From the NCBI RefSeq assembly GCF_003344785.1, contig NZ_QPMK01000013.1:1-64000 (forward strand): DNA of 64,000 nucleotides, written 5' to 3'. The position numbers were made by a program, and so were the translations under genes. Shown piece by piece: positions 6,698 through 41,939 of this stretch (position 1 is its first letter; each line of letters starts with the position of its first letter). The DNA is from Thalassococcus profundi. GTDB lineage: Bacteria > Pseudomonadota > Alphaproteobacteria > Rhodobacterales > Rhodobacteraceae. The notes below the pieces were generated by a model. The model did no database searches, was not told the DNA's origin, and was given only the letters and a program-made list of their open reading frames with translations.

Positions 6698-8914
6698 TTA
6701 TGCGGGAGGGGCTGTTAACCGGCTCACGCGCCGAAGGGCACACACGCATTCGCGAGGCAGGATCTCCTCGCCAGGTTCCTCGCCATCGTCCAAAAGCGAA
6801 CCGCCGTCGACCATGTCGAAAGTCGAAAAGAGCGATGCTTCGAGGCGCTTGAATTCCTTTTCGGAGATCGCCGTGTCGGGAAGTCCAAAGACCGCCGCCT
6901 TGTGCGCGGAAAGAGCCTCGATCTCGTCGATCGCTCGAAACACCGTCTCCTCGTCCCAAGCTTTTCGCCCTGCCGACCGGGCACGAAGCGCTCGGCGGCT
7001 CGTCAGCCAGACGTGGAGGTTCACACCGGCGAACCGCTCATGAACAGCAGGAATTTCGCGCCATTCGCCATCAAGGAAAACCTCGATTGCCCCCAGGTCT
7101 TCCGCTTCCCAGCGGATATCGACGACCGTGGGTCCGGACCGGATGAGCCGTGCCGCGAGGTCTCGGTGATGATACTTGATGCCCATGACAACGATGCCGG
7201 ATTTCGAGATTTTCCGTTTGTCACGAAGCCCGAATGCCAGTCTTTTGCTCCGCGTGTCCGGCAGAGCTCGGAGCGGATAGTTGCCGTTGGATATATCCTC
7301 ATCCCATTGCTCGCGGGGTGTGAGCCCTTCGAGACCCGCATGCGGAGAGTTGTGGTAAATATCGACGATCCAGCGGACCAGGGCGAAGGCGACATCTGAC
7401 GCATCCAGACATGCGCGGCCTGCCGCGGGATAGTCACCCCTCTCCCTTGGATTGGAAAACGTTCGTCCGCGAAGCCGTGGCATGAGATCGAGACCTGCCG
7501 TGTGAAACACTCGCTCGACAGTCCCGCGCATGCCGGGAATGCCGCCAATTGTCCTGAGGAACGACATCCCCAAGTCCATGCAGGTACTGCTGAACAAATC
7601 CGCTTTAAAAGCTGGGCCATTGTCAGAGACAAGTAGTTCGGGAATTACGGCATAGGGCCATGGGCTCAGGGCACCCACGTCGTCTGCCCATTGACCCTTG
7701 TCACTCATCACCATGCGAAGGCATTCACGTGCTGCGCTGGTGGTCGGGTTTCTGGTAAGCTTGGCTCCAAGGATGACCTTTGTGCGACAATCTATTGCGA
7801 GAACCAACCACCAGCGCGCTTTCTCCCCGTTCAGCTCCAACGCCTCTATGAAGTCTTTCCCAAAAACCTGATCAAGTTTCGCAGAAAAAATCATGGATAT
7901 GAGGTCAATTCGCCACTCATCAATTTCGACGCGTTCACCAGGTCGGGAGACCTGCACGCCCTTCGCGACGGATCGTAATTTCTTTATTGCGTGATCACGG
8001 CCCCACCGTGCGATAAGGACCTTCAGAAAGTCGAGCTTACCAATCGTTGACAGAATGGCGTCACGCCCCGGAATATCCAGCAACTCTACTCGCTCTGCCG
8101 CCGGCTTATCCCTATTCTCGGCCTCGCGCCTCTGATTTTCCTTCCGGAACCCGCGCCGAACGTCTTGGACAGTCTGCTTTTTGGTCTTTCTCTCGGTTGT
8201 AAGGTAGCTCGCCTGAACAAGCTCCATCATCAGACCGAGCACCTCCGGCCTATAGGCAGAGGTTCTGTTCCCCGAATACGAAAGATTGTCGACCAAGGCT
8301 GACAATCCGTGTTTCCGATATTCAGCGACAAACTTTCTGATCGTGTCCGAACTGAACAGGGTAACGGTTACCTCGGGCTTGCCGCCTCGCTGCTTCCGGC
8401 CAGCCCTCTCTATACGCCGATCACCACGGTTCTTCCGTTCGTGCTCGAGCATCTGCTGCTGAGAGGCCACCTCTTGGAAGTAAGGTTTGATCAGCTCCTC
8501 AATCTTGTCTCGGGACTCTTCAATGTCTGTGGTGTTATTGCGAATTCCCAGTTCTTCGACTGCCATTACATGGGCATACCGGCTGAAGAACCGTGCCCTT
8601 GGCTTATCGGGAAGATCAGAAACCCTGAAGCTGACGTCTGCCAGCCCCACCGCCGGCCTCAGATCGGCGGGAAGGTAATACCCGACCTCGTGCTTGATGC
8701 GTCCAATTGCGCTCAAGCGACTTAGATTAGACATCGGAAACTGCTCGGCTAAGCCAATCCCATCTGCAGGCACGAGTTCCACGTCTTCGCCGACGTATCT
8801 GTTCAAACGAAAGGCTTTGCCGTTGATCGTTATCCGATCATGCACGCCGATGCTGAACCCGGTCCCGACAGGCTTTATCTGGTCCGCCGGCACCATTCTG
8901 AATGGAACACTCAA
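6698..8914 (-). CDS. TnsB-like DDE transposase (Mu/Tn7 type)
   Basis: A 738-residue transposase. The N-terminal half contains winged-helix DNA-binding regions; the catalytic core shows the first Asp in VEIDEWRID, the second in ELLVSDNGPAFKADL, and the Glu in GGIPGMRGTVERVF, so the DDE triad appears intact. A Mu-type C-terminal beta-barrel follows. TnsB binds the transposon ends and joins the 3' ends to target DNA. Its start overlaps the TnsA-like stop by four bases. In Tn7-like elements a TnsC/TniB ATPase normally follows, but none is seen after the stop at 6698, so the element is a remnant or depends on a partner elsewhere. Confidence 0.85.
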   Translation of the reverse strand: MSVPFRMVPADQIKPVGTGFSIGVHDRITINGKAFRLNRYVGEDVELVPADGIGLAEQFPMSNLSRLSAIGRIKHEVGYYLPADLRPAVGLADVSFRVSDLPDKPRARFFSRYAHVMAVEELGIRNNTTDIEESRDKIEELIKPYFQEVASQQQMLEHERKNRGDRRIERAGRKQRGGKPEVTVTLFSSDTIRKFVAEYRKHGLSALVDNLSYSGNRTSAYRPEVLGLMMELVQASYLTTERKTKKQTVQDVRRGFRKENQRREAENRDKPAAERVELLDIPGRDAILSTIGKLDFLKVLIARWGRDHAIKKLRSVAKGVQVSRPGERVEIDEWRIDLISMIFSAKLDQVFGKDFIEALELNGEKARWWLVLAIDCRTKVILGAKLTRNPTTSAARECLRMVMSDKGQWADDVGALSPWPYAVIPELLVSDNGPAFKADLFSSTCMDLGMSFLRTIGGIPGMRGTVERVFHTAGLDLMPRLRGRTFSNPRERGDYPAAGRACLDASDVAFALVRWIVDIYHNSPHAGLEGLTPREQWDEDISNGNYPLRALPDTRSKRLAFGLRDKRKISKSGIVVMGIKYHHRDLAARLIRSGPTVVDIRWEAEDLGAIEVFLDGEWREIPAVHERFAGVNLHVWLTSRRALRARSAGRKAWDEETVFRAIDEIEALSAHKAAVFGLPDTAISEKEFKRLEASLFSTFDMVDGGSLLDDGEEPGEEILPRECVCALRRVSRLTAPPA

Positions 8915-9582
8915 CTTACGGACTCCTTGCGCGAAACCAGCGTCACCGGGGTTATCCGCTCGTTTTGGGGCACGAGCAGGTCACCGAAAGAAATGAGCTT
9001 CAGGAGCGCGCGGTAGCCACGTGCTCCGAGACCGAGATTGTCTGTCAGGGCCTTGATGCTGACGCGCCCCTGAAGATTCCCCACGAGCGCCCGGGCGGCA
9101 TCTTCGGCATCTGGATCCCGATCCCGAAGCGCGACGTTGATGTTTGCGTTGTGCAGCGCTTTTGCGTCGATATCCTGCTCAGTCAGCAACCGGACCGAAT
9201 GGGCAAATTTCTTTTCCTGCACCCACCACGCGACTGTCCGCATGTGTTCGACAAAGCGACCCGACTGAAGGTCGATCGTCGGCTTGATTGTGCACGCAAT
9301 ACGCCGACCGTCGCCTTTCGTCACGACCATGTCGAAGAAATGCCGAAGCTCGTCCCGTCGTCCATAGACGAAGCGCACCTGCTCCCGCACATCGACAACG
9401 TCTGCACGCACGCTCTGCAATTGCAGATGGCACTGTTCGATCCAGGCCTCCGATACCGTGCGCATCCCGGGACCATCGCCAAGCACGGTGAAGCCTGTAC
9501 AGTGCCCTTTCGACGCATTCGCGATCCTTCGGTCTGCCCGAGATGGTTCGGGCAACACTCTTCCCTCCGAAAAACACGGCAT
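8911..9582 (-). CDS. TnsA-like transposon endonuclease
   Basis: A 223-residue protein with a PD-(D/E)XK-type core: a Glu in MRTVSEAWIEQ, an Asp in HFFDMVVTKGDG, and the Lys in RIACTIKPTIDL followed by an EHMR..AWW helix, in the order known for TnsA nucleases. A C-terminal winged helix-turn-helix (GRVSIKALTDNLGLGARGY) completes the fold. TnsA cuts the 5' ends of the element so that TnsAB together perform cut-and-paste transposition. Promoter-proximal position and the four-base overlap with the TnsB-like gene fit the Tn7 order. Assignment rests on motif order and context. Confidence 0.75.
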   Translation of the reverse strand: MPCFSEGRVLPEPSRADRRIANASKGHCTGFTVLGDGPGMRTVSEAWIEQCHLQLQSVRADVVDVREQVRFVYGRRDELRHFFDMVVTKGDGRRIACTIKPTIDLQSGRFVEHMRTVAWWVQEKKFAHSVRLLTEQDIDAKALHNANINVALRDRDPDAEDAARALVGNLQGRVSIKALTDNLGLGARGYRALLKLISFGDLLVPQNERITPVTLVSRKESVS

Positions 9583-10139
9583 ATTCGTTCTCCTTTTGCA
9601 TAGAGAGACCGCCTGCCGGCACGGCGGCCGACAGCGCCCGAAGGCTGCGGTCTATTTTTGGGGTTAGTGTCGACGCTCAGCCGATACGGGCTGGCTCCGC
9701 TCTTGAAGATCCTGACATTTCAACGAGCCAGTGACTCGGTGCCAATGGATGAGCTATGGAAAGTCGCGACGTCCGATCGGGGTATCATCTCCGGTCCGTG
9801 GTTGCTTCGTTTCAAAAGCAATGTTGGCCACTCTTTCTCGCGACGAAGAATTTTTTTTCTTTTGGGCGTTTCTCCTTCTGATCAGTGATTCTCTCGCTAA
9901 GGAATCCGATCACGAGTCCTCTGGTCAACGCTGAGAAACTTCTTTGTGCGCCGCGAGTGATGCGCCGTGCTGCCAACATGGCCTCAAGCATGGAACTCGC
10001 ACGGCAAAACGCTGAAGTTTAATCCAAATTCTGACGCTGAATTTTCCCGGACTATGGTGGTCAACAACCTATAAATTGTGCATGATGTGCGAAGCGGCCC
10101 CTGCATCTTGAGTCCGCTTCAAGAAGACGGAGCTTTACG
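9583..10139. other. gene-free region, possible Tn7-like element end
   Basis: About 560 bases upstream of the TnsA-like gene and before the degenerate transposase. It is lower in GC than its surroundings. It carries three copies of an (A/G)ACGCTGA octamer (9927, 10008, 10033), possible transposase-binding sites. In Tn7-like elements one end lies just upstream of tnsA, so a transposon terminus is expected here, but I could not find a matching opposite end. Confidence 0.4.
9927..10040. repeat. three short direct repeats (A/G)ACGCTGA
   Basis: AACGCTGA at 9927-9934 and 10008-10015, and GACGCTGA at 10033-10040; flanks are partly alike (GAAACTT, AGTTT, ATTTT follow). They sit between a TnsA-like gene and the next ORF, where TnsB-binding repeats would be expected. 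The repeats are short, and chance is not excluded. Confidence 0.35.
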
Positions 10140-11393
10140 GTGACCAAAGCAGCATCTTTTCGAACGCCAGATGCGCGGAGGTCGGCGCTCAAGCTGGCTG
10201 AAACCATTGGCGTGAAAAGGGCGGCTCAAGAGCTGGGTTTACACCGCAACACACTGAACAACTGGAAACGTCGAAAGAAGGAGCAAGGGACACAGGGGTT
10301 GAAGCCTTCACCCCGAAAACAGACGACACATCCGCAGATGACGCCCGCCGCCACGGTTCAGGCGATAATCGATCTCGCTTTGGCGCATCCTTCTTTCGGC
10401 TGTTACAGGCTTAGGGAACTACTGCGGTCGGATGATCGCCAGGTCTCGACGACGACGATCCAGAACATCCTGAACAGGAAAGGTCTCGGGACACAGAGGG
10501 GCCGCCTGATGGCCCTGGAGGATCGCGGAACTCTGGACGGTATGAGCTGCGAGCAGACCGAGTTCGTCAACCGCATGAATCCGTGTTTCCCCAAGTGCAA
10601 TGTCCGGAACCAAGGCCCCGGTTGGGCGCTCGTGGCTGGATCATGGAGCATCCGTGCTGGCGGCTCACCGGACAACATGTTGCTCTTCACCGTCCTTGAT
10701 GTCTGGACAGGATATGTGTTTAGCGTTGTGACGAATGACGATAAGAAAGATAAGGCGCTCCAGAAGCTGAACCATCAGATTGCACGATTTTACCGTGGAT
10801 GGGGGTGCAAGGTTCAGTCCATATACTTGTTCGAAGGAATGGATGAGTCGGACAATTCATTTCTCTCTTATGAGAACAGCCACTTTCTTTTTCAGGCGCA
10901 TCTATCTCAGAACATCATAGTGCGAAATCATCGGTCATGTTGCCTGATGCGGTTTCAAGAGATAATTTCAAAGGAATTCTTTAAGCTTCTTGATGCCGAC
11001 ACGTTCCGATCAAACGTGGATGAGTTCGATCAGTTGCTCCATGAATGGCTGCGCTACTACAACGCGGAACGGAAGCATGAAGGCTATCCGCACAGCGGAA
11101 GGGCACCACTTCACCGTTTCAACTTGCGACCCAAGGTTCGATCCCAGCGAAAGACGTCTGAGCGGCAGCCTCCTGAACCAGCCCGCTGCGGCACATCCGG
11201 CGCAGAAAATTCGCGTTTTTGCGAGCCGTGGCATGGTCGAGGTCGCAAGATAAATAACCTTCTCGATTTCATCGTGAACGACATTCCGGAGGTTACAATT
11301 CAGCCCAGCAACATTCACCCGCCGCCGTTCGATTTCCTCTGGTATTATTGCAACCGGTCCCGAGTTGGCCCAGCACGAGAATTTTTTTCGTGA
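10140..11393 (+). CDS. transposase/integrase-like protein that seems to lack the DDE triad
   Basis: A 417-codon ORF with a GTG start after GGAG. The N-terminus is an IS3/IS481-type helix-turn-helix (ALKLAETIGVKRAAQELGLH then NTLNNWKRR), and the end of the core keeps the shape of an rve integrase domain (LFTVLDVWTGYVFSVVT, and LLHEWLRYYNAERKHEGYPH near the end). The places where the catalytic Asp, Asp and Glu are expected read VAGSWSIRAGG, IYLFEGMDESDN and HRSCCLMRFQE, none matching DxT, TDNG or NGxVERF patterns. The frame is open throughout despite this. It could be a decayed insertion sequence or a protein kept for DNA binding. Codon use is more AT-rich than the neighbours. Confidence 0.65.
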   Translation: MTKAASFRTPDARRSALKLAETIGVKRAAQELGLHRNTLNNWKRRKKEQGTQGLKPSPRKQTTHPQMTPAATVQAIIDLALAHPSFGCYRLRELLRSDDRQVSTTTIQNILNRKGLGTQRGRLMALEDRGTLDGMSCEQTEFVNRMNPCFPKCNVRNQGPGWALVAGSWSIRAGGSPDNMLLFTVLDVWTGYVFSVVTNDDKKDKALQKLNHQIARFYRGWGCKVQSIYLFEGMDESDNSFLSYENSHFLFQAHLSQNIIVRNHRSCCLMRFQEIISKEFFKLLDADTFRSNVDEFDQLLHEWLRYYNAERKHEGYPHSGRAPLHRFNLRPKVRSQRKTSERQPPEPARCGTSGAENSRFCEPWHGRGRKINNLLDFIVNDIPEVTIQPSNIHPPPFDFLWYYCNRSRVGPAREFFS

Positions 11394-11588
11394 AGGGGAA
11401 GCGGCTTATCTTTGGCTTTCGCCGCCGGCCCACGCTACTGCGGGCCCTCATGGCAGCAGGGCACCGTGAACCTGATAGTAAGCTTTGACAGGTACTTTTT
11501 CCATGGCATTGATAGGCTACAAGTTGTAGCGTCCGTGATCTGAGACCCTGGTTCTCGTATGTAGGCGCTCAATTCTCGGAGAACACAC

Positions 11589-12662
11589 ATGGCCGCTTTT
11601 TCGCACGGTTTCACCTTCATCGACCTCTTCGCGGGCATCGGCGGCCTGCGCATAGGTTTCGAGGCGGTTGGAGGCACCTGCGTCTTCACCAGCGAGTGGA
11701 ACAAGTTCTCGCAGCAAACCTACCGCGCGAATTTCGAAGACGGTCACGAGATCAACGGCGACATCACCAAGGTCGACGAGCGTGACATCCCCGCCCACGA
11801 CGTCCTGCTCGCCGGATTTCCCTGCCAGCCGTTTTCCATCGCCGGGGTGTCGAAAAAAAACTCGCTGGGTCGTGCCCACGGTTTCGCGGACGAGACACAG
11901 GGCACGCTCTTCTTTGACGTGGTGCGTATCCTCAGGCACCACAAGCCGAGGGCCTTCCTGCTGGAAAACGTCAAGAACCTCTTGTCGCATGATAAGGGGA
12001 ACACCTTTCGGGTCATCCTCCATGCCCTCGACGAACTGGGATACGATGTCGATCACAAGGTGATCGACGCGCGCCACTGGGTTCCGCAGCACCGGGAACG
12101 CATCTTCATTGCCGGTTTCCGGCGTGACGTGCCTGCCGTGTTTTCCCTCGACGAGGTCATCCTGCCCGGAGGCATTTCACCGACACTTGCGGACATTCTA
12201 CACCCGCAGGACGGTTCGGAGGCTGTCGAGGAGCCTTATACCACCGGTCCCTTGGCCGAGGTGGGAGCCAAATATACGCTCACGCCCAACCTCTGGAAAT
12301 ACCTCCAGAACTACGCGGCCAAACACAAGGCGGCAGGGAACGGTTTTGGCTATGGCCTGTGCCAGCCCCACAACGTCGCGCGCACGCTCAGCGCCCGATA
12401 TTTCAAGGATGGCAGCGAGATCCTGATCGCCCAGGACCACGGAACGCCGCGCCGCCTGACACCGCGAGAGTGCGCGAGGCTCATGGGATTCGACCGCAAG
12501 GGTTCGAACCGCCCGTGGAAGATCGTCGTCTCCGACACCCAAGCCTACCGGCAGTTCGGCAATGCTGTCGCCGCCCCGGTTGCCATTGCCATTGCCGAAG
12601 CGATGGCCCCGTGGATCACCAATACGGTCGCACTGCACCCCAAACGGGGGATGCGTGCCTGA
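11589..12662 (+). CDS. dcm: Dcm-type DNA (cytosine-5) methyltransferase
   Basis: A 357-residue C5 methylase, complete. Motif I DLFAGIGG is at residues 12-19, the catalytic PCQ loop at 78-80, ENV at 126-128, QHRERIF at 167-173, and the closing FGNAVAAP motif near 330. The target-recognition part, with [20 protein letters not shown] and [16 protein letters not shown], closely resembles E. coli Dcm and M.EcoRII as I remember them, which methylate the inner C of CCWGG. It opens unit A and overlaps the Vsr-like gene by eight bases. Its likely job is to protect host sites from the nucleases encoded downstream. CCWGG specificity is an inference from the recognition region. Confidence 0.93.
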
Positions 12663-13143
12663 CAAGCCGCCTATGACCCGGTCCGCGATGATGTCGCGGA
12701 TCGGTCCGAAGGATACCAAGCCCGAGATGATGGTGCGCAAAGGGCTGCACAGGCGGGGTTTCCGCTATCGCCTGCACAGACGGGACCTACCCGGAAAGCC
12801 GGACATCGTTCTGCCCAAGCATCGCGCCGTGATCTTCATCCACGGTTGTTTTTGGCACGGCCACGAGGGCTGCCATTATTTTCGCATCCCCAAGACGAAT
12901 ACAGATTTCTGGCAAGCCAAGATCGGACGGAACCGGGAAAGGGATGCTGCGGTCCGACAACACCTTGTAGAGTCAAGGTGGCGCGTTCTAACAGTATGGG
13001 AGTGCGCAACACGCCAGGTGCCAGGGGATTTTCTGATATCGGTGATTGCAGATTGGTTGGCAGGGCCTGAAAGCGAGGCCAGCATTTCAGGGCAGGACCT
13101 TTTCTCACGTCTGGACGGAAAGTCCGGCTCGCGAATGAAGTGA
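12655..13143 (+). CDS. vsr: Vsr-like endonuclease
   Basis: A 162-residue protein of the very-short-patch repair endonuclease family (PD-(D/E)XK-like fold). [20 protein letters not shown], the catalytic Asp in PGKPDIVL, the [11 protein letters not shown] segment with metal-binding His and Cys, and [10 protein letters not shown] all match E. coli Vsr. GTG at 12655 is chosen because GGGGG lies just upstream and it overlaps the dcm stop; ATG at 12673 is the alternative. Classic Vsr nicks T:G mismatches formed by deamination in Dcm sites. In restriction clusters, Vsr-like proteins are predicted to cut unmethylated or foreign DNA. Context here supports the restriction role but does not exclude repair. 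Confidence 0.92.
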
Positions 13144-17436: not shown

Positions 17437-17867
17437 AGAAATTCCTCAAGACCCTCAGTGCCAATGATGTCGGCTCGACGGGAGCCCACATGGGTGGCAT
17501 CCTCATTCCCAAGGGCGATGCCGAGCTTCTGGCATTCCTGCCGCACTTGGACCCCAAAGAATACAATCCAGACGAATGGATCCAGTGCGTGACGCCCGAT
17601 GGGCGCGAACTTCGCTTGCGTTACGTTTACTACAACAATCGCTTTCACAAACCGAACGGGACGCGAAACGAATACCGGATCACGCACCTCACAAAATTCC
17701 TGAGGACGGAAGGTGCCAAGGAAGGCGATACTTTCGAAATCTCCAAAGAGGACGGCGCCACCCGCTACCTGATCAGTGTTGTCAAAGCCGAGCAGGAACC
17801 CGACGAGCCAGCCGACGATGGCCCCGTCCGCATCAAGATTTCCAATGGCTGGCGCCGCATACATTGA
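17433..17867 (+). CDS. EcoRII-N/B3-like DNA-binding protein
   Basis: A 144-residue protein formed almost wholly by an EcoRII N-terminal (B3-like) domain: LSANDVGSTGAHMGGILIPK at the start, RYVYYNNRF in the middle, and GTRNEYRITHL, then DTFEISK, near the end. In EcoRII this domain binds CCWGG as allosteric effector and restrains the catalytic domain. Here there is no catalytic domain; only about 30 acidic and basic residues follow. It is last in unit A, coupled to the SNF2 gene by ATGA. It is a likely specificity subunit that recognises the same sequence as the Dcm enzyme. That recognition is an inference from family and context. Confidence 0.8.
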   Translation: MKKFLKTLSANDVGSTGAHMGGILIPKGDAELLAFLPHLDPKEYNPDEWIQCVTPDGRELRLRYVYYNNRFHKPNGTRNEYRITHLTKFLRTEGAKEGDTFEISKEDGATRYLISVVKAEQEPDEPADDGPVRIKISNGWRRIH

Positions 17868-17920
17868 CCATCGGCCGACCGGGAAACGGAAGACCGAGGG
17901 TCAAAGCCCGCTCAGCTTAC

Positions 17921-19681
17921 TTACTCGACCAGATCCTTGAAAAAAGAGAGCGGTCCGGCACTTAACAAGCTCCGGTCAAGAAAACCATTCCAAGCCTCAC
18001 AACTCGTCTCTGGCAGGAACACGCAGTTATGGCAGGCCGCGTGGTTTCCGTTCGAGCCACTCCGCGCCATGCCTTCGGAACAAAGCGGATCAGCGGAGCA
18101 AAGTTCATGGTCGGCCAGCGCCTGCAGGACAAGTAGCTCCATCCGCGCCGGTCGCGCCTGCCGCGAAAGCCCGCCCATGGTTCCATCTGCATCGGGCGTT
18201 GAGGTGTAGATCAGGAGTCCAGCCATATCCGGCCCGACATAAAGCCGTTCGCGCAAGGCGCTCGAAGAATATCCGCTGTCGAGGGACAGGCGCGCGATCA
18301 GCGCATGCGCAAAAGTGTGGATCAGCATGTATCGTGCGTTGAGTTGGGATGGCGCGCCATCCGCCTGCTTTCCCTCGGCCCGAGCGGTATCCATGTGTGT
18401 CTGAGTCAGCCGGGCAAGATGTTCGATAACATCCGGCCTGTTTTCCCATTCTGAAACAGCATCGAGGTTCAACGACAGGAACACGCCTTCCCCGTGCATC
18501 GCAACGGCCGGCAGCCATGACAGACCAGATCGAGACAGCGGCACCGCATCCGGCTTGCCACCGACCTGCGCCTTCAGTCTCGTGAACCCGGTCAAGGCAC
18601 GCACCTCCCGAAGACGTTCCACGGACGAAACCCAAGAGATCATCCCTGAGAATGTGGCCGGCACAGGCTGCTGACGGTTCAGCAGGATCATCGCATTTTC
18701 GTCGGACGCCGAGGTATCCGTCAGCAGCATCCGGAACTCGTCCAGCCGCAGATCTCCTTCACTTCCCGAATTGTCTTCCTTAATCTCCCTGAAACGACGA
18801 GCAATTTGCTCTGCACTTTCGGTACCGTCCCAGGTAGGAAGGACTTTCTTCGTGATGAAGGCGATCTTCATGTCTTCATCGTCGAGGAAATCGAGCATGT
18901 CGACGAAGTCCGCGATCTTTTCCCTGAATGGCACCTTCCAGTCAGGAAGCGTGATCGCGCTCTGCTCAATCGAGAAGTAGACGTTGCTTGCTCCCCGTTG
19001 CGTGATCCGTGGCGCAGCCTCGCATCCCATCTCGCGTCCGCCAAGCCATGGCCGGCCACCGCCGCACTTGTGTTTTGGGATACCCTTTGGTGAAAACGCT
19101 TCGGCCATTGAACGGCCAGCGCCGCAGGACTTGCAGGTCAGTAGCAGTCCTCCGATGCCCGCTCCGACCGTCTTCAACGCCAGGACTGGCTGAGAACATT
19201 CGGCTTCATGCGTTAGCCACGACGTCCACGGAAAATCGTCGAGGTGGCCGTTCTCGCAAATCGTGACAAAACGGACAGGCACCACGGCGGGTTTTCCGCG
19301 GCATCGGCCACAATGCAGGCTATCGCCATTCCTCGAGGGTGCCCATTGTCCTGAGCGGTTGATGGCGTGGCATTCGGGACAGGAGAGCCAATCCGGAAAC
19401 CGTTCCATGGGAAGCACGCGGTCCCTGGTTTGTCCGTCCTTGAGGTAGGTCCCGACTGGCGGCGCCCGGAAGTGATCGACGCCCAACAGAGCTTCAAGTC
19501 TCGGTTCGCGAACCACGTCCTGCTTGTAGCCGCCTTTCGTGTAGGCCTCCCATGCCTCCAACCCCTGCATGACCCCTGAAAGCAGTGCGCCGCTTCCCGG
19601 CAGACGGAAATCAACAATCGATCCGGGACCGAAGGTTGATATGATCTGGCTGCGGCGGATGCTGCCAACATTCTTGCTCAT
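17921..19681 (-). CDS. DrmB-like DUF1998 protein
   Basis: A 586-residue protein. The N-terminus IRRSQIISTFGPGSIVDF is typical of DISARM DrmB. Zinc sites are visible: CPEC/CGRC (101-104, 124-127), a CKSCGAG site, and a C-terminal group with CSADPLC and CHNCVFLPETSC. The DUF1998 core includes MLIHTFAHALIARLSLDSGY, and YTSTPDADGTMGGLSRQ. In DISARM, DrmA and DrmB form a complex that is loaded on incoming DNA and held off by methylation. The start overlaps the DrmA-like stop as ATGA. No enzymatic motif is seen, as for the family. Last gene of unit B; converges on unit A with about 50 bp between. Confidence 0.9.
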   Translation of the reverse strand: MSKNVGSIRRSQIISTFGPGSIVDFRLPGSGALLSGVMQGLEAWEAYTKGGYKQDVVREPRLEALLGVDHFRAPPVGTYLKDGQTRDRVLPMERFPDWLSCPECHAINRSGQWAPSRNGDSLHCGRCRGKPAVVPVRFVTICENGHLDDFPWTSWLTHEAECSQPVLALKTVGAGIGGLLLTCKSCGAGRSMAEAFSPKGIPKHKCGGGRPWLGGREMGCEAAPRITQRGASNVYFSIEQSAITLPDWKVPFREKIADFVDMLDFLDDEDMKIAFITKKVLPTWDGTESAEQIARRFREIKEDNSGSEGDLRLDEFRMLLTDTSASDENAMILLNRQQPVPATFSGMISWVSSVERLREVRALTGFTRLKAQVGGKPDAVPLSRSGLSWLPAVAMHGEGVFLSLNLDAVSEWENRPDVIEHLARLTQTHMDTARAEGKQADGAPSQLNARYMLIHTFAHALIARLSLDSGYSSSALRERLYVGPDMAGLLIYTSTPDADGTMGGLSRQARPARMELLVLQALADHELCSADPLCSEGMARSGSNGNHAACHNCVFLPETSCEAWNGFLDRSLLSAGPLSFFKDLVE

Positions 19682-22600
19682 TGTATTTCCTCAGCGTCCG
19701 ACGAAGCAATTTCCTTGATGACGAACTCTGTCGATGGCTCGACAGCGCGAAGCGTTCCCGGAGTGGCCCGTGAAAGGCCTTTGGTGAAGCCGGAGGCATT
19801 CGATGTCGCCTGTGCGTCCGCTGAAATCAGCAGACCGTTGTCCGACCAGTTGTCCCAGTATTTCGGCAATGCCCCACGGCGCAGCCAGAGCTTGAGGAAT
19901 TCTTCAAGCTCGCGACGGGAAGCGTCAGCTTCACCCGGGTCGACGTTGGCAATTCGCTGACATATCAGATCGATCAACGCCTTCAGGTCGGCCGCGTGGT
20001 CCGCCGCCGCGGCCGGAGTGTCCAACATGCCCGGCACCAGATGCCGCGCCATGGCAACGAACGGAGCATGGAGCGCCTTGTCCCGCGCCCTCGGTGCAAA
20101 TGGGGTCACACCAGTTGCCTCGACATCCCGGTAGAGGGCACCATGCCAAGTCGGGAAGGTCTCATAACGGCTTCGGTCGCGGGACTTGCTCGCGTTGTAG
20201 AGCGTGACGACAAGCCCGGGCACACGACCGCGGCCAACGCGGCTCGTTGCCTGGATGTACTCGGCGATGGTCTTTGGCTGGCCGTTGACCAGCATCAAAC
20301 CCAGACGCCCGACGTCGAGACCGACCGAAATCATGTTTGACGCGAGCACCACATCGGCCGCTTCGCCATTGTCGCGGGTCGCATCCAGTTCCACGAGCTT
20401 GTCGCGGATTTCGTCCGACTTGACCCGGCTGGTCAACTCAGTCGGCGGCTGCAGGTGACGAGGCTCTTCCTGCCGTCGCGCCGATACCAGTTCGAGCCCA
20501 TGCGTGACGTCATCCTGCATTATGATCGAAGCGCTGCCGAGTTCGCGCAGCGAATTGAAGTAACCAACGAGCGTCCAGTAGTGATCCCCCTCCACGTCAG
20601 TGAAGCTGGGATCGGCAGCGGCTTGGAGGAGCGACGACGCGATCGCCTGATAGATGTAGCTCCCAGTGCGTCCAGCCGTCGTGACGCCCAGATACAGTCG
20701 ACCGAAGCTATCCTCTTCAACACAGGCGAAACCCGAATTGGAATGATGCAATCCGGGCGGTGGGAATTGCATGACGCGACGATCGAACAGGTTCAGCACC
20801 TGATCCGCCGCGCGCCTGATCGTTGCGGTGGAGCCGATCACCTTCGGGCGTCGGCCGTCCCGGGTGCAAAGCGCGTCGATGGCAGTTTCAAAGAGGCCCG
20901 CCATGCTGCCCAATGGCCCGGATATGAGATGCAGTTCGTCTTGGATGATCAGATCGGGTGGCAACCGATCGGCATTTCCGAGACCGAAAAGGCGACCGGT
21001 TTCCTTCTTTGTGACGATCTGGACGAATTTGTCAGCGGTGCCCAGCAGCAGCGTCGGAAGTTCGCGGTAGATGTCCTCGTCAACCGTCCAGAACGGAAGG
21101 TGATCACGCGCCTGTCCTGATTTGCATCCGGCATCACGACAGCATGCATGAATCCGGTCGCCACTTGCGGCTATGTCCCAGTCGAGGTGCGAACCGCAGT
21201 CCGGGCAATGCTCGATCTGGGCCGGTGAGCCGGTCTTTTCCGTTTCGACGATCCTGTTCGGCGTTGTATCCCGCCCGACCCAGAGGCCGATGGAAATCGG
21301 CGCGCCTTGCGCGAGCGAGGAAGGGACATCGATTCCAGGGCAATCACAGTCCCCTGTCCGCAACAGATCACAGGCAAGGATCATCGCTGCTGCCCGCTGG
21401 AACTGCTGCGCCGTCAACAGACGCAGCGTGTAGCGCATCAGGACGGTCACGCCTTCCGACTCGGGGCCACCCTGCTGACGGCGCAGGAATATGGTATATG
21501 CGGTCAGCAGAAGGTAGGCCTCAGTCTTGCCGCCCCCGGTGGGAAACCAGAGCAAGTCCATCACACCGCGATCAGTGTGATCCCGGTCCCCTGCCGAAGC
21601 CATGCACAGCAGAACGAAAGCCATCTGAAACGGGCGCCAGACCAGAGGGCCGATGCGGGAATCCCGCTTCCGCTTCCATTCGTTCTGCTGCCAGAGTGCA
21701 CGGTTGGCGAGGCGGAATGCCAAGAGCTCCGGACCATCAGCCCGCAGAAGATTTACACCCCCTCTCATCCTGGCCAACGCTGTGCGGCACTCATCCAGAT
21801 GTCGCCGCGCCGTTTCCTGAAGCCCGGTCGGCAGCACCTCAACTTCCGCGTCTCGAGCCTTGATCCAGTCGTCGTAGCACGCGCAAAGGTCGTCGAGCGC
21901 CGCACAAACATCGCTATGGGGCGCGATAGACAGCCACTCGGACCCCAAGGCCCCCTCAAGCTTCGTCGCGACGAGTTTCGCAAAAAATTCTGGATCGCCC
22001 AAAGGTCCCGGCGATCTGACCAGAGTTGACGGCAGCCACTCGGTCGCGAGGCGAACCGTTCCATCCGGCATTTGCTCACTTCGGATGGAGCAGGTGTGGC
22101 CTGCGCCGTAGTCAGGTGCGTCGCGATAAAGCAGCGCGGCCGTGGCACGGTCCTCATCGGGCATCCGCTGCATCGGGTCCGGACGCGGAACGATAAGGCC
22201 GAAATCTGGGTCAGCCTCGACGCTGAAGCCCACCTGATGCAAATCGCCAACACCCCTCAATCCAGGCTCGGGTTTCTTTGGCGTCACGTTTCTGTTCAGA
22301 AGAATGACCGTCACGAGATAAAGGTCGCCGTGTTTGCGACTACGCAACCATAGCGCCAGATCCGGAATTCCCGGCACATCATATTCGCCGTCGCGATCCT
22401 CAGGTAGTTCTATGGAGTTACGGGCGGTCAGAGGTTTGCGGGTCCAGTCGAAGCGTGGGCGCCCTTCATCTGAGGTTGCACGGGCCACAGCCTCGTAGCG
22501 GGCCGCCGAAACATCCACATTGAGCAGGACGTTTTCGCCATCCTTCGAGCGCACGGCGAATGACAAACCGGCCGAACTCGGGCGAAAAGTTTCCGGCGGC

Positions 22601-22818
22601 ACACGAGCCGCAGCATCGTCTTCCTCATCGGAGACAAGAACTGCGCCTTCCGTTTCGCCCACGCCCTGTGGGCTCTTCTGAGCGAACAGGATGCCCGTCA
22701 TGTAAATTTCCGACGGACTGTCGTGCAGGATCTCGTCACCCACCAAGGGCCCCATGAGATCCTGCCTGAGGCGTTCGATCATCCGCTGGCGCGCGGCATC
22801 CCCAACATTATTGGTCAT
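19678..22818 (-). CDS. DrmA-like SF2 helicase
   Basis: A helicase of about 1046 residues. The Walker A segment LLWFPTGGGKTEAY is near residue 430, the Walker B segment is IIQDELHLISGPLG, a zinc-like group CPDCG/CC/C lies between them, and the second lobe has SNMISVGLDVGRLGLMLV and IQATSRVGRG. This arrangement matches DrmA of DISARM. The N-terminal 400 residues are the family's DUF-type region. ATG at 22818 is preferred to 22824 because GGGGAG lies seven bases before it. Both overlap the end of the UvrD-like gene. DrmA is a DNA translocase of the DrmAB complex in DISARM. It is somewhat shorter than most DrmA proteins. Confidence 0.88.
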   Translation of the reverse strand: MTNNVGDAARQRMIERLRQDLMGPLVGDEILHDSPSEIYMTGILFAQKSPQGVGETEGAVLVSDEEDDAAARVPPETFRPSSAGLSFAVRSKDGENVLLNVDVSAARYEAVARATSDEGRPRFDWTRKPLTARNSIELPEDRDGEYDVPGIPDLALWLRSRKHGDLYLVTVILLNRNVTPKKPEPGLRGVGDLHQVGFSVEADPDFGLIVPRPDPMQRMPDEDRATAALLYRDAPDYGAGHTCSIRSEQMPDGTVRLATEWLPSTLVRSPGPLGDPEFFAKLVATKLEGALGSEWLSIAPHSDVCAALDDLCACYDDWIKARDAEVEVLPTGLQETARRHLDECRTALARMRGGVNLLRADGPELLAFRLANRALWQQNEWKRKRDSRIGPLVWRPFQMAFVLLCMASAGDRDHTDRGVMDLLWFPTGGGKTEAYLLLTAYTIFLRRQQGGPESEGVTVLMRYTLRLLTAQQFQRAAAMILACDLLRTGDCDCPGIDVPSSLAQGAPISIGLWVGRDTTPNRIVETEKTGSPAQIEHCPDCGSHLDWDIAASGDRIHACCRDAGCKSGQARDHLPFWTVDEDIYRELPTLLLGTADKFVQIVTKKETGRLFGLGNADRLPPDLIIQDELHLISGPLGSMAGLFETAIDALCTRDGRRPKVIGSTATIRRAADQVLNLFDRRVMQFPPPGLHHSNSGFACVEEDSFGRLYLGVTTAGRTGSYIYQAIASSLLQAAADPSFTDVEGDHYWTLVGYFNSLRELGSASIIMQDDVTHGLELVSARRQEEPRHLQPPTELTSRVKSDEIRDKLVELDATRDNGEAADVVLASNMISVGLDVGRLGLMLVNGQPKTIAEYIQATSRVGRGRVPGLVVTLYNASKSRDRSRYETFPTWHGALYRDVEATGVTPFAPRARDKALHAPFVAMARHLVPGMLDTPAAAADHAADLKALIDLICQRIANVDPGEADASRRELEEFLKLWLRRGALPKYWDNWSDNGLLISADAQATSNASGFTKGLSRATPGTLRAVEPSTEFVIKEIASSDAEEIQ

Positions 22819-25114
22819 CGTCATTCTCCCCGTGCCCGGCGCCACGCGCGACGCCCTGAAGCACCGGCAGCAGTGTCACCGCTTGAATTTTGCCATCGCT
22901 CCGACGGTCAACCACGGTCGTGGCTCCGACCACGCGTAATGTGCCGGAGGCAAGCCCGCCCCGGGTGGACTCGATGTGATCGAGGTCATCGGTCAATTGG
23001 CCTTCGGCTTCCGCCAACGGTTCGCCACTGTCCGTGACAAGATGCCAGGGCGACCCGTCACCAGAGGCAATCCGCCGGAAAGAGCAGTTAGGTTGCCGGA
23101 ACGCGGCCTCCCAGACGGACAATGCAGGAACGACCCCAGCGAGCGGGCGCAATCCTTCCGACCCTGACAAAAGAAGGCCCCCACTGTTTCCACGCAACCA
23201 TCTGCTGCCATTCTTGCCAGGCCGCACCATTCCCGCCTGCGCCCTGCCCAGATACAGGTGTGTCGATGCCCTTGTCGCACCGACGAACAGAACCCTGGCC
23301 TCCTCCTGCCAATCGACATCATCGCCGGACGGAACCGGCGGCAGCATGAGAAGAACATTCGTCGCTTCCCGCCCCTTGGCACCATGGATAGATCCCAACA
23401 TCGGCCCCGCGGTGCCGACATGATCGCGCATGTGTCCCACCGGCTCACGTTCAATAGTTTCCGCGATGTCTTGGGGACGAGCTGTTGGCCCTTTGCCAAG
23501 GGACTGAAGGTCAGAAAGAACGTCTTCTTCATTCACATCGAACGGCGCGGGGTGGAGGTCTGCAAGCCGCCGGCGTACATGCTCAAGGCGAATTGCGGCG
23601 CCCGGAGCAAGACCAGCGCAAATCGCGCCTACCAGAGGATCGCAAACCGTGGTTTGACCCGACAATTTCAGACGATGTACGCGGGCTGCCCGCGTCAGCC
23701 GAACCGACGCGGCCTCGGTTGCCGCGCGGCCCCGGAAAAGGACCAGGCTATCATCCCGCCACGGGAAAACCTGCCCGGTCAGGCTCACGCTCGGGTCCGT
23801 CGCCACATCCTCGAGCATTTCGCGGATTTCGAGGTAGGTCGAACGCGGATCGCCGTCGGCCTCGAGTAGCGTCCGCGCCCGGGAAAAGAACTGCCGCAAG
23901 CTGTCTGATTTCGTCCGATGGTTCGACGTCAGGGAACGGTCCTCCCAACCGTGTTTACCTCTGAGCTCGGCATGAAGAGATCCTCCACCCCCGTTGTTTC
24001 CAGCCCACGATCCGTAGATCGCCTGCGCGTCGTCGCCCAGTATCGTTACGCCAACGCTCGCTGGCAGCGCATCGATCAAAGCGCGACAGAACATTCGGCG
24101 CTCTCCGACGATGTCCTGTGCTTCATCGATCACCAGATGTGAGGTGCGTGCCAACTGATCCAGCATCGCCTGCTCGCCGTCCGTGATCGATCTCCGGGCA
24201 ATGCGGATGGTCCGCTCACGTCCACCGCGCGGTCCATCACCAAGCGTGGTCACAAGGTTCCACGCGAGCGAGTCGATCGTTCCGCACATGACACCGCCGG
24301 CGTAGGTGTGCTCGGCCAAGGCATGTGAGATACGACGGCCCACCTCTTCGGCGGCGACCCGGGTGAAGGTGATGAGCCGAATGCCTGCGGGTGGAAGACC
24401 TTGCTTCACGAGATGGATGACACGTTCGGTGGCGGTGTGCGTTTTGCCACTACCAGGCCCGGCGGTGATGATTTGTCGTGCTCTTGCCGAGCACTCGATG
24501 ACTGCCATTTGCGATGGATCGGCAGCCTTTCCCTCTGTCCGGGGCAAAGGGAAATACTCCCTTAGCCAAGCCGATGAATCCTCGAGGATAGGTTGGTCGG
24601 GCACGACACCTGCAAGGCACAGCACCCGCGTTACTCTGTCGGAGGAAGTCGCGTCCATCGACCAGACACCTGTGTCCAGGATTTGCCAGAGCACTACGAG
24701 GTCAGAGCCTGAAAGCTCGCCGACCCAGTCGAGGAAACTGATGACACCGGATGGGACCACATCCGTTGTCCGCAACAGGCCATGGGGTTCACCTTGAGAT
24801 GGGTCGCCCCCGAGAAGGATGCATCGATCGCCCTGATACAGTACCGACACCATTCGCCGTTTGACCAGGACCTTGTCACCGTAGGATTTTCCGGAACCGA
24901 CGTCGCCACACGCCAGCAACGCTGACACGACAGCCTGTGCCTGCTGCTTTGCTGCCGTCTCGGACAAACAGTCAGCCACGGCGGCCGCCTTCAGACCTGC
25001 GATTGCCCGAGATGCCGGCACCGCCCCGAGATCATGCACGTCCCTGCGCAACTGCACGGCGAGTTTCTGAACCGGGGCGACGGCCTCGAGGGTGTCGGCA
25101 TCAGTGTTTTGCAT
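22808..25114 (-). CDS. UvrD/Rep-type SF1 helicase with an N-terminal extension
   Basis: A 768-residue protein when started at the ATG at 25114. Residues 200-700 form an SF1A helicase: AGPGSGKTHTATERV (218-232), TFTRVAAEEVGRR, the DEAQD box (330-334), ILGDDAQAIYGSW, LTSNHRTKSDSLRQF, SIHGAKGREATNVLL and RVLFVGATRAS. The first 200 residues are not part of the usual fold; they include a second P-loop-like GDVGSGKS at 71-78 and YQGDRCILLGGDP, perhaps a DNA-contacting or docking domain. It opens unit B and its 3' end overlaps the DrmA-like gene. A UvrD helicase is not a core DISARM component. The upstream in-frame extension to 25300 crosses the divergent gene and was rejected. Confidence 0.87.
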   Translation of the reverse strand: MQNTDADTLEAVAPVQKLAVQLRRDVHDLGAVPASRAIAGLKAAAVADCLSETAAKQQAQAVVSALLACGDVGSGKSYGDKVLVKRRMVSVLYQGDRCILLGGDPSQGEPHGLLRTTDVVPSGVISFLDWVGELSGSDLVVLWQILDTGVWSMDATSSDRVTRVLCLAGVVPDQPILEDSSAWLREYFPLPRTEGKAADPSQMAVIECSARARQIITAGPGSGKTHTATERVIHLVKQGLPPAGIRLITFTRVAAEEVGRRISHALAEHTYAGGVMCGTIDSLAWNLVTTLGDGPRGGRERTIRIARRSITDGEQAMLDQLARTSHLVIDEAQDIVGERRMFCRALIDALPASVGVTILGDDAQAIYGSWAGNNGGGGSLHAELRGKHGWEDRSLTSNHRTKSDSLRQFFSRARTLLEADGDPRSTYLEIREMLEDVATDPSVSLTGQVFPWRDDSLVLFRGRAATEAASVRLTRAARVHRLKLSGQTTVCDPLVGAICAGLAPGAAIRLEHVRRRLADLHPAPFDVNEEDVLSDLQSLGKGPTARPQDIAETIEREPVGHMRDHVGTAGPMLGSIHGAKGREATNVLLMLPPVPSGDDVDWQEEARVLFVGATRASTHLYLGRAQAGMVRPGKNGSRWLRGNSGGLLLSGSEGLRPLAGVVPALSVWEAAFRQPNCSFRRIASGDGSPWHLVTDSGEPLAEAEGQLTDDLDHIESTRGGLASGTLRVVGATTVVDRRSDGKIQAVTLLPVLQGVARGAGHGENDDDQ

Positions 25115-25220: not shown

Positions 25221-25931
25221 ATGAATGACTTGTTTGCCAGTGAGGATCTGCTGGCGCAGATTTTTTCGGACCTGTCCCGGCAACGGGATGGCCGAACCAT
25301 CTCCCTGATCGAGCATGGCCTCGCTCGCGACGAAATCGAGCAATTGCTGTACCACGTCAGCCAGCGGGCTGGGCAGCATCAGTTCACCAGGCGGGCGTGG
25401 CAGGACTTGCCACTGTCGCTTGCGGTAGTCGTAACCGAAATCGGCTATGAATATAGAGGGACAGGGACCGACTTCTGGCCATTGGTTGAGTCGGCAATCA
25501 AGATCGAAGTCCCAGTAACGCAACGAGGCGTGATCTCCGATCTGTTCCGGGATTGCGCAAGACGGTTCGGAACCGCGCGACCTTTTGACGATGCCTGGTC
25601 CTCCGTCTTTCCGCATATTGCATGGCCTGTCCGGAACGCCATGGTTCCACGTGAGGTCCATGGCTCCTTGGCACGACTTGTCAGGGAGTTCCTCAATCAG
25701 ACTCGCAGTCTAAGCGTAACCCGCGCCGCGCTGCCGGGCCTGCGGGAACTCGCCCGAGGCTTCGGTTCGCGACGGCTGGAATCCTGGCTTCAGGATGACG
25801 ATCTTGCGCTTTCGGTCATCGGCCATCTCGTCTCTGGTCGGACTGGCGACTTGGGAATGGAACCAAGATTCCTTCAACGTCTCGCCAATGACTTACGCTC
25901 CGAAAGCGAGACTCGTGGACCGCGCTCGTGA
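25221..25931 (+). CDS. unrecognised defence-unit protein
   Basis: A 236-residue protein with a good start (AAAAG seven bases upstream of ATG). I recognise no domain. It is mostly alpha-helical with many Arg and Asp residues; a segment near residues 72-90 (VTEIGYEYRGTGTDFWPLVE) is the most distinctive. There are no nuclease or ATPase motifs. It opens unit C, divergent from the UvrD-like gene, and its last 44 bases overlap the next gene in another frame. The two might be one longer protein if the frame changes there. Its position suggests an adaptor or DNA-recognition subunit working with the RapA-like helicase. Confidence 0.7.
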   Translation: MNDLFASEDLLAQIFSDLSRQRDGRTISLIEHGLARDEIEQLLYHVSQRAGQHQFTRRAWQDLPLSLAVVVTEIGYEYRGTGTDFWPLVESAIKIEVPVTQRGVISDLFRDCARRFGTARPFDDAWSSVFPHIAWPVRNAMVPREVHGSLARLVREFLNQTRSLSVTRAALPGLRELARGFGSRRLESWLQDDDLALSVIGHLVSGRTGDLGMEPRFLQRLANDLRSESETRGPRS

Positions 25932-26262
25932 GGCTGCCCGCCTTCCTGAGTTGTCTGAACTCGTGCTGCCCGCGCCGCGCGCTGAGTGTCTCGAAAGAGT
26001 GCCATACGAATCCAGCCATCTGGACGACCTGATCGCCGCATTGGTTTCCTGCCATGTGGATGTTCAGTCCCGAAGCGGACGCTGGCTCACGCCCGCGGAC
26101 CTACGTGCCTTGTTGTACCTTTTCCTGGCTCCGGAACGTGTCATGGATGACCCGGAATGGCGGGGCAGGCTGCTGCGCTTCAGCGCGGACCGCTTCACGG
26201 CGCGCGCCGTGCGCTACGCTGCCTTGCGCTATCGCGCGATGACGAATGTTGATCTTTCATGA
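25888..26262 (+). CDS. unrecognised small defence-unit protein
   Basis: A 124-residue protein, starting at ATG 25888 (MTYAPKARLVDRAREAARLP) inside the end of the previous gene. It contains WLTPADLRALLYLFLAPERV, an all-helical pattern, and no motif known to me. The stop overlaps the RapA-like start as ATGA, so the unit is translationally coupled. Start choice is uncertain because no clear ribosome site is present; the overlap with the upstream frame leaves open that it is the C-terminal part of a single protein. Confidence 0.6.
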   Translation: MTYAPKARLVDRAREAARLPELSELVLPAPRAECLERVPYESSHLDDLIAALVSCHVDVQSRSGRWLTPADLRALLYLFLAPERVMDDPEWRGRLLRFSADRFTARAVRYAALRYRAMTNVDLS

Positions 26263-29045
26263 ACACGTTTCACCTTGCACAGTCGGGCTTTCACGCCCTC
26301 GAACGCCTCGTCGCAGCCGAATCTTGGGAAATGGGTGGTGCCCTCGGCGTCGCGGCTGACCCCTATCCACATCAGATCGCAAACCTGCGCCGCATCCTTG
26401 ACGATACGGAAATCCGTCACTTGCTCGCCGATGAGGTCGGCATGGGCAAAACGGTGCAGGCTTTGATGATCCTCAATATCCTGCGCAGACGCGATCCGTC
26501 CTTGAGGGTCGCAATCGTTGCACCGGAACGCATTTGCTACCAGTGGCAGGTCGAGCTTTCGGCGCGCGGCCACATCGCGGCCCGCATCCTGACAGACGCA
26601 GATGAAGAGCAGGAGCATCCCGATGGCGAAGGCTATGTACACCTGATCAAAGCAGACATGGTCCGCAGGCAACCGGCGCGTCCCTCGCCGGACGACTATG
26701 ACATGCTCATCGTGGACGAGATCCACGCCATGAATCTCGAGGACGCGGCATTCCTTTCCAGCCTGTGCCGAGAGCGGCGCGACGCCCCACGGTTCAGACA
26801 TGTCCTGCTGTTGACTGCCACGCCGCGTCTGGGCAATCCCGCGTGGGCGCGGGCAGTCATCGGTGCGATCGAGCCGGAACGCTCTGGAATCGCCAATCTT
26901 CTCGGCCGCGAGCCCTTGGAGTTTATTGTCGAAGACGCCGCTGCGGCACAGGCGCGCGTTTCGGACGGCACCCTCTCCGCCGCGGCCTACAGGACAGCCT
27001 TCGCGGCAGATCGCCGAATCCTTCGCCAAACGCGGAGCCAATGGCCCGGCATCGCACCAAAGCGCAAGGTGTACACGGTCCAAACTGCGCCCTCCGATGC
27101 CGAGATGCCAAAAATCCTGCTGCAAAACGCAGCCTGCCGCGACGGTCGGGACGCCCCGATGGACGCGGCACCTTGGCTGCAGTGCCGTCAGATGTTCCGC
27201 GCCGGATCAAGCCTGCGTGACGTCCTCCGCCACCGAACCTTTGCGGCGCATCCGGATTTGCGTGACGAGGTGGAGTCCGCCCTGTCGCGCAATCCCGGTA
27301 ACGCGTTGTTCGACGAACTGTGCGACGTGTTGCTGGGCTTCTGGCAAAAGAATCCAGAGCGGCGCATTATCGTCGTCGCCGGCGACACGCCCACCGTGGA
27401 CATGCTGGAACGGCGCCTGTCCGACATGTTCCCGCACCTCTTAGACGGCGGCATTGCAACGATGCGTGGCCGCCACAACACCGATCTGGTGGATGTCGTC
27501 GGCGCCGTTCAGAGCGAGTCCACTGTCCTGATCATGGAGGAGTTTGTCGAGGCTGGCCTGAACCTGCACGACTTCGCCGCCGATATGATCTTCTACAACC
27601 TGCCGTGGCAGGCCTCGCGTATCGACCAGCTCGTCGGTCGTCTCGACCGGCTGCGGGCCGGCGGGCTCAGTGCTTACATGAAAGACCGGACCGTTGGCAC
27701 CATCGGCATTTGGCGCATGGTTGTTGCCGGCTCGGCAGATGAGCGGGTGCTTGAAGCTCTCGATCTAATGGATGTCTTCGAGCAACCCTTGCCATACCTC
27801 GACGAAGCCCTGTCCCAACGTATCGACAGGATCATCACCGACGCAGCGGCTGGTCGGGCCAATTTCAGGCAGGCTGCATGTGAACTGAAAAGAGAGCTCA
27901 TTTTCGGTCTGAATCCCTCTGGAGGGAGCGTTGTTTCGGCTCATGCGGATACTTCGGATGACATCAGCAGGATCGTTGGCAACATTCGCGCGTCGGAACA
28001 TTCTGGAATCGCCTGGTTGCGCCTATTGCACGTCAGTGGAGCGTTGAAAGGCGGTTTCCCAAAGACCAATGATGGAGAACGGGTCGCGACACTGTCTTTA
28101 CCGCCGCTTTTGGAAAATTGCCCATATAATCTCGGTGCGATGACAACGCGCGAAGCGGAGGTCTTCCGCTGGCGCCGGGATCGCCTTGGAAAGCCACCCA
28201 AAAAAGATGTCGTGCTACCAAAGGATCGCCTCGGGAAACGGGCGCGTTTCTTTTCGACCGGCGACGAATTGCATGATGACTTGGTCCATCAGGCATACGC
28301 AAACTTGAAAGCAGGCACGATTTCGCCGATCCCGGTCGGTGTCCACTTGTCCGACGAAACACTGACTTCAGGCCTGCTCGGGAAAACACTGATTCTGGTT
28401 CGCAGCGCATGGCGGCCATCGTTGCTCAAAGACAAGCAACTCAGAGTGCGCGACGACGACGCTCCTGCCGTACGAGTGGGACGCCTCTCAGACCGCCAGT
28501 GGATTTCTACCCTGTTCCCCGACGCCGTCAGGACGCGTTGCCTCGTGGTCTCCGTTGACGGCACTGTCGAGGTCGCCACCGACGAGATCGCTCGAGCCCT
28601 CCTTGGCGAAGGCTGCAAACCGACAACGAACCGTCAGATACAAAAGACGATTACGCCTTTTCGCGAAATTCAGAAGTTTGTCAGCGCACTGGAACGCGAA
28701 ATGATCCAGGAAGCACGCCTGCGCCTTGGGAATTTGCGCGAGGAAGCAGCGGCAGTCTTTTCAGACAGGAGGCAGATCCTTACGTCCGAGACCGAAACAT
28801 ATATTCGATGGAAGCAACTCAGCATCGAGCAATTGCGCTCACGCAATATCCAGGACCAGCAACAGATCCAAATGAATGAAGGGCAGACCGCCGCCGAACA
28901 GCGACGCATAGAGGCGCGAATATCAGGAATGACCGATCGGTTGCGGAATCTCGAAGACGTGCTTGCAAACCTCGCCCACCACTCGATGCCGGAGACTTTC
29001 TTCATAATGGTGAGAGTGCTTCCGTCAGCCCACCTCGGGGGCTGA
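26259..29045 (+). CDS. RapA/SNF2-type helicase (DrmD- or DpdE-like)
   Basis: A 928-residue SF2 ATPase. DPYPHQIANLRR leads into Walker A LLADEVGMGKTVQAL (56-70); DEIH is at 153-156; LLTATPRLGNPAW follows. The second lobe has VLIMEEFVEAGLNLHDFAAD and WQASRIDQLVGRLDRLRAGG. This is closest to the RapA/HepA branch, as in DrmD of class 1 DISARM and DpdE of 7-deazaguanine DNA systems. The last 200 residues include a long charged helix region rich in Glu, Gln and Arg (about 820-905), probably coiled coil. No phospholipase D motif is present, so it does not replace DrmC. It ends unit C, and a weakly defined gap follows. Confidence 0.88.
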   Translation: MNTFHLAQSGFHALERLVAAESWEMGGALGVAADPYPHQIANLRRILDDTEIRHLLADEVGMGKTVQALMILNILRRRDPSLRVAIVAPERICYQWQVELSARGHIAARILTDADEEQEHPDGEGYVHLIKADMVRRQPARPSPDDYDMLIVDEIHAMNLEDAAFLSSLCRERRDAPRFRHVLLLTATPRLGNPAWARAVIGAIEPERSGIANLLGREPLEFIVEDAAAAQARVSDGTLSAAAYRTAFAADRRILRQTRSQWPGIAPKRKVYTVQTAPSDAEMPKILLQNAACRDGRDAPMDAAPWLQCRQMFRAGSSLRDVLRHRTFAAHPDLRDEVESALSRNPGNALFDELCDVLLGFWQKNPERRIIVVAGDTPTVDMLERRLSDMFPHLLDGGIATMRGRHNTDLVDVVGAVQSESTVLIMEEFVEAGLNLHDFAADMIFYNLPWQASRIDQLVGRLDRLRAGGLSAYMKDRTVGTIGIWRMVVAGSADERVLEALDLMDVFEQPLPYLDEALSQRIDRIITDAAAGRANFRQAACELKRELIFGLNPSGGSVVSAHADTSDDISRIVGNIRASEHSGIAWLRLLHVSGALKGGFPKTNDGERVATLSLPPLLENCPYNLGAMTTREAEVFRWRRDRLGKPPKKDVVLPKDRLGKRARFFSTGDELHDDLVHQAYANLKAGTISPIPVGVHLSDETLTSGLLGKTLILVRSAWRPSLLKDKQLRVRDDDAPAVRVGRLSDRQWISTLFPDAVRTRCLVVSVDGTVEVATDEIARALLGEGCKPTTNRQIQKTITPFREIQKFVSALEREMIQEARLRLGNLREEAAAVFSDRRQILTSETETYIRWKQLSIEQLRSRNIQDQQQIQMNEGQTAAEQRRIEARISGMTDRLRNLEDVLANLAHHSMPETFFIMVRVLPSAHLGG

Positions 29046-41800: not shown

Positions 41801-41906
41801 GGGCGATTCCCTTCGAATGGCAGGCAAGCAGAATAACGCGAAGCGGCAAGGCGACACAACGGCTACCGCGGGAAATGCACAACTGCTTGAAGGCTTGAAC
41901 ATCCAG

Positions 41907-41922
41907 TCTACAATATATGCGC
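41907..41922. promoter_or_regulatory. NrdR-box-like sequence upstream of nrdJ
   Basis: TCTACAATATATGCGC lies about 110 bp upstream of nrdJ and within the leader of the DUF1489 gene. The ACAATATAT core resembles half of an NrdR box, but a clean second box about 31 bp away is not present. It may just be a promoter -10 region. Confidence 0.25.
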
Positions 41923-41939
41923 AGCTTGGGGAAGAATCT

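Follow-up and report, generated by a model that had tools for sequence, protein, structure and literature searches.

A putative DISARM-related defence locus headed by a UvrD-like helicase in Thalassococcus profundi

Results

The window, the 64,000-nucleotide stretch of Thalassococcus profundi DNA analysed here, carries on its reverse strand at 17921-25114 three genes, encoding UvrD, DrmA and DrmB, that overlap end to start and form one operon. The first gene encodes a UvrD/GajB-like SF1 helicase of 768 aa (22808..25114, reverse strand; PF00580, 4.5e-20) with the motifs AGPGSGKT, DEAQD and VGATRA, whose orthologues in the related loci L001-L005 are 73-93% identical. DrmA (19678..22845, reverse strand; 1055 aa, with a true start likely near 22824) is a YprA-family SF2 helicase containing the motifs TGGGKT, DELH and QATSRVGR; it matched the PADLOC DrmA model at E=6e-198 and reached 816 bits against NCBIfam NF038325, for which the cut-off is 950, a score far higher than for any non-DISARM helicase family. 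Its DUF1998/MZB zinc-binding partner DrmB (17921..19681, reverse strand; 586 aa) matched PF09369 and passed NCBIfam NF038324 with 475 bits against a cut-off of 240. The open reading frames, the leading position of UvrD and the lack of a DrmC gene in the operon agree with the first-pass annotation of this DNA, whose reading of the locus as a DISARM-related variant headed by a UvrD helicase is likewise supported.

The conserved unit is larger than that annotation had it, since the divergent partner genes at 25221-29045 belong to it. In the relatives L001, L002 and L004, an intact gene for a 979-aa protein, here called P979, lies divergent from UvrD and is paired with SNF2b, a 928-aa RapA/BrxH/DpdE/DrmD-like helicase encoded in the window at 26259..29045 on the forward strand. 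SNF2b scored below the cut-offs of three models, with 145 bits against NF041062 DpdE (cut-off 500), 92 against DrmD (610) and 91 against RapA (576). P979 had no match in Pfam, PADLOC, NCBIfam or PDB sequences, and a fold search with a model of mean pLDDT 51 was uninformative. A first scan of viral contigs retrieved no P979, and the corresponding UvrD scan did retrieve loci carrying P979.

In the window, P979 is broken into an N-terminal remnant (residues 1-232; 25221..25931, forward strand; 79-93% to L001, L002 and L004) and a C-terminal remnant (residues 863-978, from 25909) within an ORF at 25795..26262 on the forward strand, the two being out of frame, and the gene is intact in the close relatives examined. 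Comparison by blastn with L001 and L004 placed the deletion junction at 25908..25910 (forward strand), at a 3-bp GAG microhomology. Compared with L001 the gene lacks 1,898 bp, and its frame is shifted. All genes of the block other than P979 are open, with Ka/Ks values of 0.06-0.26 against L001 and L002, suggesting that the lesion is recent. Because P979 carries this frameshifting deletion, the copy in the window is probably impaired, with reduced or no defence activity. A stronger reading, that the locus is a decaying non-functional copy inactivated by the deletion, stands at about even odds in our judgement; the open state of the other genes and their low Ka/Ks count against it, though low Ka/Ks mostly reflects the time before the deletion, and it is compatible with the explanation that we favour below for the whole family.

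The first-pass annotation had described the first 200 or so residues of UvrD as lying outside the SF1 fold, which is borne out by the start of the PF00580 match near residue 200. An AF2 model of the N-terminal fragment, built from 8 aligned sequences (mean pLDDT 64 for the whole fragment, block pLDDT 68-89 over residues 11-80), contained helices at residues 4-29, 34-47 and 52-68 and strands at residues 31-33, 72-77 and 80-85. Foldseek matches to this model were at the top mostly winged helices (BlaI, MecI and E2F-DP), none of them individually significant (best E 0.18). Taking the two predictions together, we assign with moderate confidence a winged-helix DNA-binding domain to UvrD residues 4-94 (24833..25105, reverse strand), its modelled helices and strands covering residues 4-85. 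The non-SF1 character of this region stands, but the second P-loop proposed for it does not. The string GDVGSGKS is present (UvrD 70-77; 24884..24907, reverse strand), but its lysine is K, R or Q among orthologues 72-93% identical and T, A or L in more distant ones, and it falls at the first wing strand, in the hairpin of the predicted winged helix. A Walker A function of this string was rejected because the lysine varies and the predicted fold is a winged helix.

P979-SNF2b lies divergent from UvrD-DrmA-DrmB in 14 of 14 loci with the extended UvrD. These comprise the subclade of the window, here called W (the window, L001-L005, L028 and L029, from Rhodobacteraceae and kin), all of whose members carry the pair, together with L020, L021, L030, L031, L036 and L040 of a second group, X. 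UvrD-DrmA-DrmB and P979-SNF2b are thus a five-gene block conserved as a unit. A DrmA tree was built from 42 rows, with nine class 1 sequences as its confirmed DISARM reference; in it, the 20 DrmA encoded downstream of a UvrD gene (groups W and X and a third group, Y) formed a single clade with support of 100/100, and the nine class 1 DrmA formed a separate clade, also at 100/100, with the window's DrmA outside it. Placed against the DISARM classes in this way, the variant status proposed in the first pass holds with respect to class 1, and the window's DrmA sits in a largely DrmC-free, UvrD-linked clade; a known group of that kind was not found described. At least 11 of the 20 proteins in this clade come from loci with a C5 methyltransferase gene close by. 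The DrmA of a Tsukamurella plasmid (L024) also has a UvrD gene upstream, yet it falls outside the 20-member clade, so that the link to UvrD may have several origins or may be more ancient. L037 branches near the base of the clade without clear resolution.

Several neighbouring arrangements were seen in these loci. On the Tsukamurella plasmid, a RelA/SpoT-domain gene (11708-13120) precedes UvrD-DrmA-DrmB, and an SNF2-type helicase and a methyltransferase follow it. L032 has a tandem pair of UvrD genes upstream of DrmA (8145-12067). In another DrmAB group (L085, L086, L087 and L099), the gene immediately before DrmA encodes a NERD-UvrD protein, and in L085 and L086 this gene is preceded by one for a protein of ~1100 aa with a DUF1232 match. 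A pair of ParB-like genes together with a serine recombinase gene flanks the system both in the window (at 1808-5204) and in L030 (at 17582-19901), with 46-63% identity, and this common flank suggests that the two systems travel on a shared mobile cassette. Elsewhere in the window, a ribonucleotide reductase-like ORF (38396-42073) contains an apparent intein, judged from its translation alone.

The first-pass annotation had treated DrmC as an obligatory part of the DISARM core, a view contradicted by the report that DrmC is dispensable and often missing (Bravo et al. 2022, PMC9142583), so that its absence is unremarkable by itself; annotated DrmC was also missing in several of the class 1 DISARM loci examined here. 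The absence as such was upheld. The ORFs at 8-36 kb of the window contained no HxKxxxxD motif, no phospholipase D (PLD) gene adjoins UvrD-DrmAB, the PLD matches of the genome sit on other contigs, and no credible DrmC was found in the genome, where the DrmC model gave at best a 17-bit match on a different contig. Downstream of DrmB, most X and Y loci encode a NERD nuclease-helicase, L037 has in its place a DrmC-like PLD (PADLOC DrmC, 8e-30), and the W clade has neither. A protein search for NERD found no homologue in the W-clade genomes G000, G505 and G697, and its positive controls were G587 and G622, of which the G587 gene was missed by PF08378 alone. The idea that a PLD or NERD protein from another part of the genome supplies the missing effector was accordingly set aside, with no NERD and no credible DrmC found. 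From these arrangements we infer that the nuclease encoded after DrmB can be exchanged, the position holding NERD, DrmC or nothing.

P979 relatives also occur in Druantia-like surroundings. On plasmids of Leisingera S132 (L105, 11188-23820) and Paracoccus versutus (L106, 11809-24181), P979-SNF2b is convergent with DruD-like-NERD-DruE, the DruD-like call being based in Leisingera on a weak PADLOC match and in Paracoccus on position. In L091 (10152-19901) and L107 (7762-18511; Nitrosococcus plasmid pNWAT01), a P979-like protein of 954-955 aa occupies the DruB/DruC slot of a four-gene Druantia, DruA-P979-like-DruD-DruE. A search with the DruC model for canonical Druantia gave only weak, apparently spurious matches. 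The likeness to Druantia thus consists of the P979-family protein and, in two loci, of SNF2b and NERD as well, whereas the helicase there is DruE instead of DrmA and DrmB, the Druantia loci have no UvrD, and the window's DrmA had no DruE match. Because P979 relatives also sit in Druantia loci, P979-SNF2 looks like a module common to DISARM-like and Druantia-like systems.

Compared with class 1 DISARM, the block shares separate DrmA and DrmB genes, the DrmC slot after DrmB and, in the neighbourhood, an SNF2 helicase and a methyltransferase, which in the window belongs to the adjoining unit A described below. It differs in that the window's DrmA belongs to another clade and falls under the NF038325 cut-off, UvrD leads, P979 is present, DrmMI is missing here, DrmC is mostly replaced by NERD or absent, and the SNF2 helicase stays far below the cut-off of the DrmD model characteristic of class 1 (92 bits against 610). 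Class 2 DISARM is marked by DrmE and DrmMII, and P979 matched no PADLOC model of any kind. The closest published frame is that of Bell et al. 2025 (PMC12458937), the main text of which describes ARMADA, BRIGADE and TALON and gives ARMADA type II a BrxHII-like helicase, a YprA helicase and a GajB-like UvrD that bears an additional domain at its N-terminus. This inventory, a RapA/BrxHII-like SNF2 helicase, a YprA-type helicase and a GajB-like UvrD with an N-terminal extension, resembles that of the block closely enough to raise the possibility that the block is a relative of ARMADA type II and not of DISARM. We consider this unlikely, as DrmA and DrmB are separate genes of the DISARM type that score to DISARM models and are not DruE-like, the conserved block contains no PglX-like methyltransferase, and a winged helix is predicted at the UvrD N-terminus where ARMADA type II has a RelE-like domain, as judged against the main-text description of ARMADA. 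No description of the UvrD-DrmAB clade or of P979 was found in the literature including that main text, supplements aside.

The operon is convergent with a neighbouring set of genes, unit A, which reads C5 methyltransferase (11589-12662)-Vsr-GHKL-HNH-SNF2a-EcoRII-N and which the first-pass annotation had suggested as the source of the effector; in the corresponding model, DrmAB-UvrD would detect phage DNA. Unit A does adjoin the operon in 5 of 8 W-clade loci and tracks the same lineage, in one W subclade only, but it occurs complete and without DrmAB on one plasmid each of Pseudomonas putida and Fuscovulum, it is missing beside the close relatives L003, L005 and L029 and from the X and Y loci, and L003 has a methyltransferase-Vsr-MvaI set in its position. 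In gene content it matches the MORC-type restriction-modification operons with GHKL, HNH, SNF2, EcoRII-type, cytosine methyltransferase and Vsr genes (Iyer et al. 2008, PMC2292703), which are autonomous and lie outside the DrmAB unit. Unit A is, by its gene content and distribution, best taken as an autonomous MORC-type restriction system neighbouring DrmAB; its candidacy as effector of UvrD-DrmAB was rejected on these grounds, and we hold the corresponding scenario to be improbable. That the block is a DNA-repair cluster is least probable of all, for although some helicases of the YprA and UvrD families act in repair, a UvrD match in 7 of 395 genomes of the family, a patchy and mobile distribution, plasmid carriage, restriction-modification neighbours and DISARM and Druantia relatives speak for defence.

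Discussion

The block at this locus is probably a phage-defence system related to DISARM and made of several helicases, and by its sequence a DISARM-related variant for which we found no published description. We regard as evenly balanced the further reading that UvrD-DrmAB together with P979-SNF2b is a class of YprA-helicase defence in its own right, so far without a description. In this reading, DISARM-type and Druantia-type helicases would trade P979-SNF2 as a two-gene module, and the position of the nuclease could be filled by DrmC, by NERD or by nothing.

Using the DrmAB mechanism of DISARM as an analogy (PMC9142583), we infer every functional step of the following scheme. DrmAB would act, as in DISARM, as a DNA-loading translocase that engages phage ssDNA or 5'-overhang intermediates, and the predicted winged helix of UvrD would tether or place a second helicase on the DNA. 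P979-SNF2b may serve in recognition or remodelling, as a module that Druantia-type helicases use as well. The C5 methyltransferase of the neighbouring restriction-modification system may supply a self mark, with unit A possibly its source. A nuclease would be optional and exchangeable, and without one, the system might either block phage DNA by unwinding it or rely on a nuclease encoded elsewhere.

Read as a DISARM relative, the family offers DISARM-like systems in a natural series, with DrmC, NERD or no nuclease after DrmB, and the action of DISARM without DrmC therefore becomes testable by gene swaps. A module common to DISARM-like and Druantia-like systems would, in addition, help explain how parts are exchanged between them.
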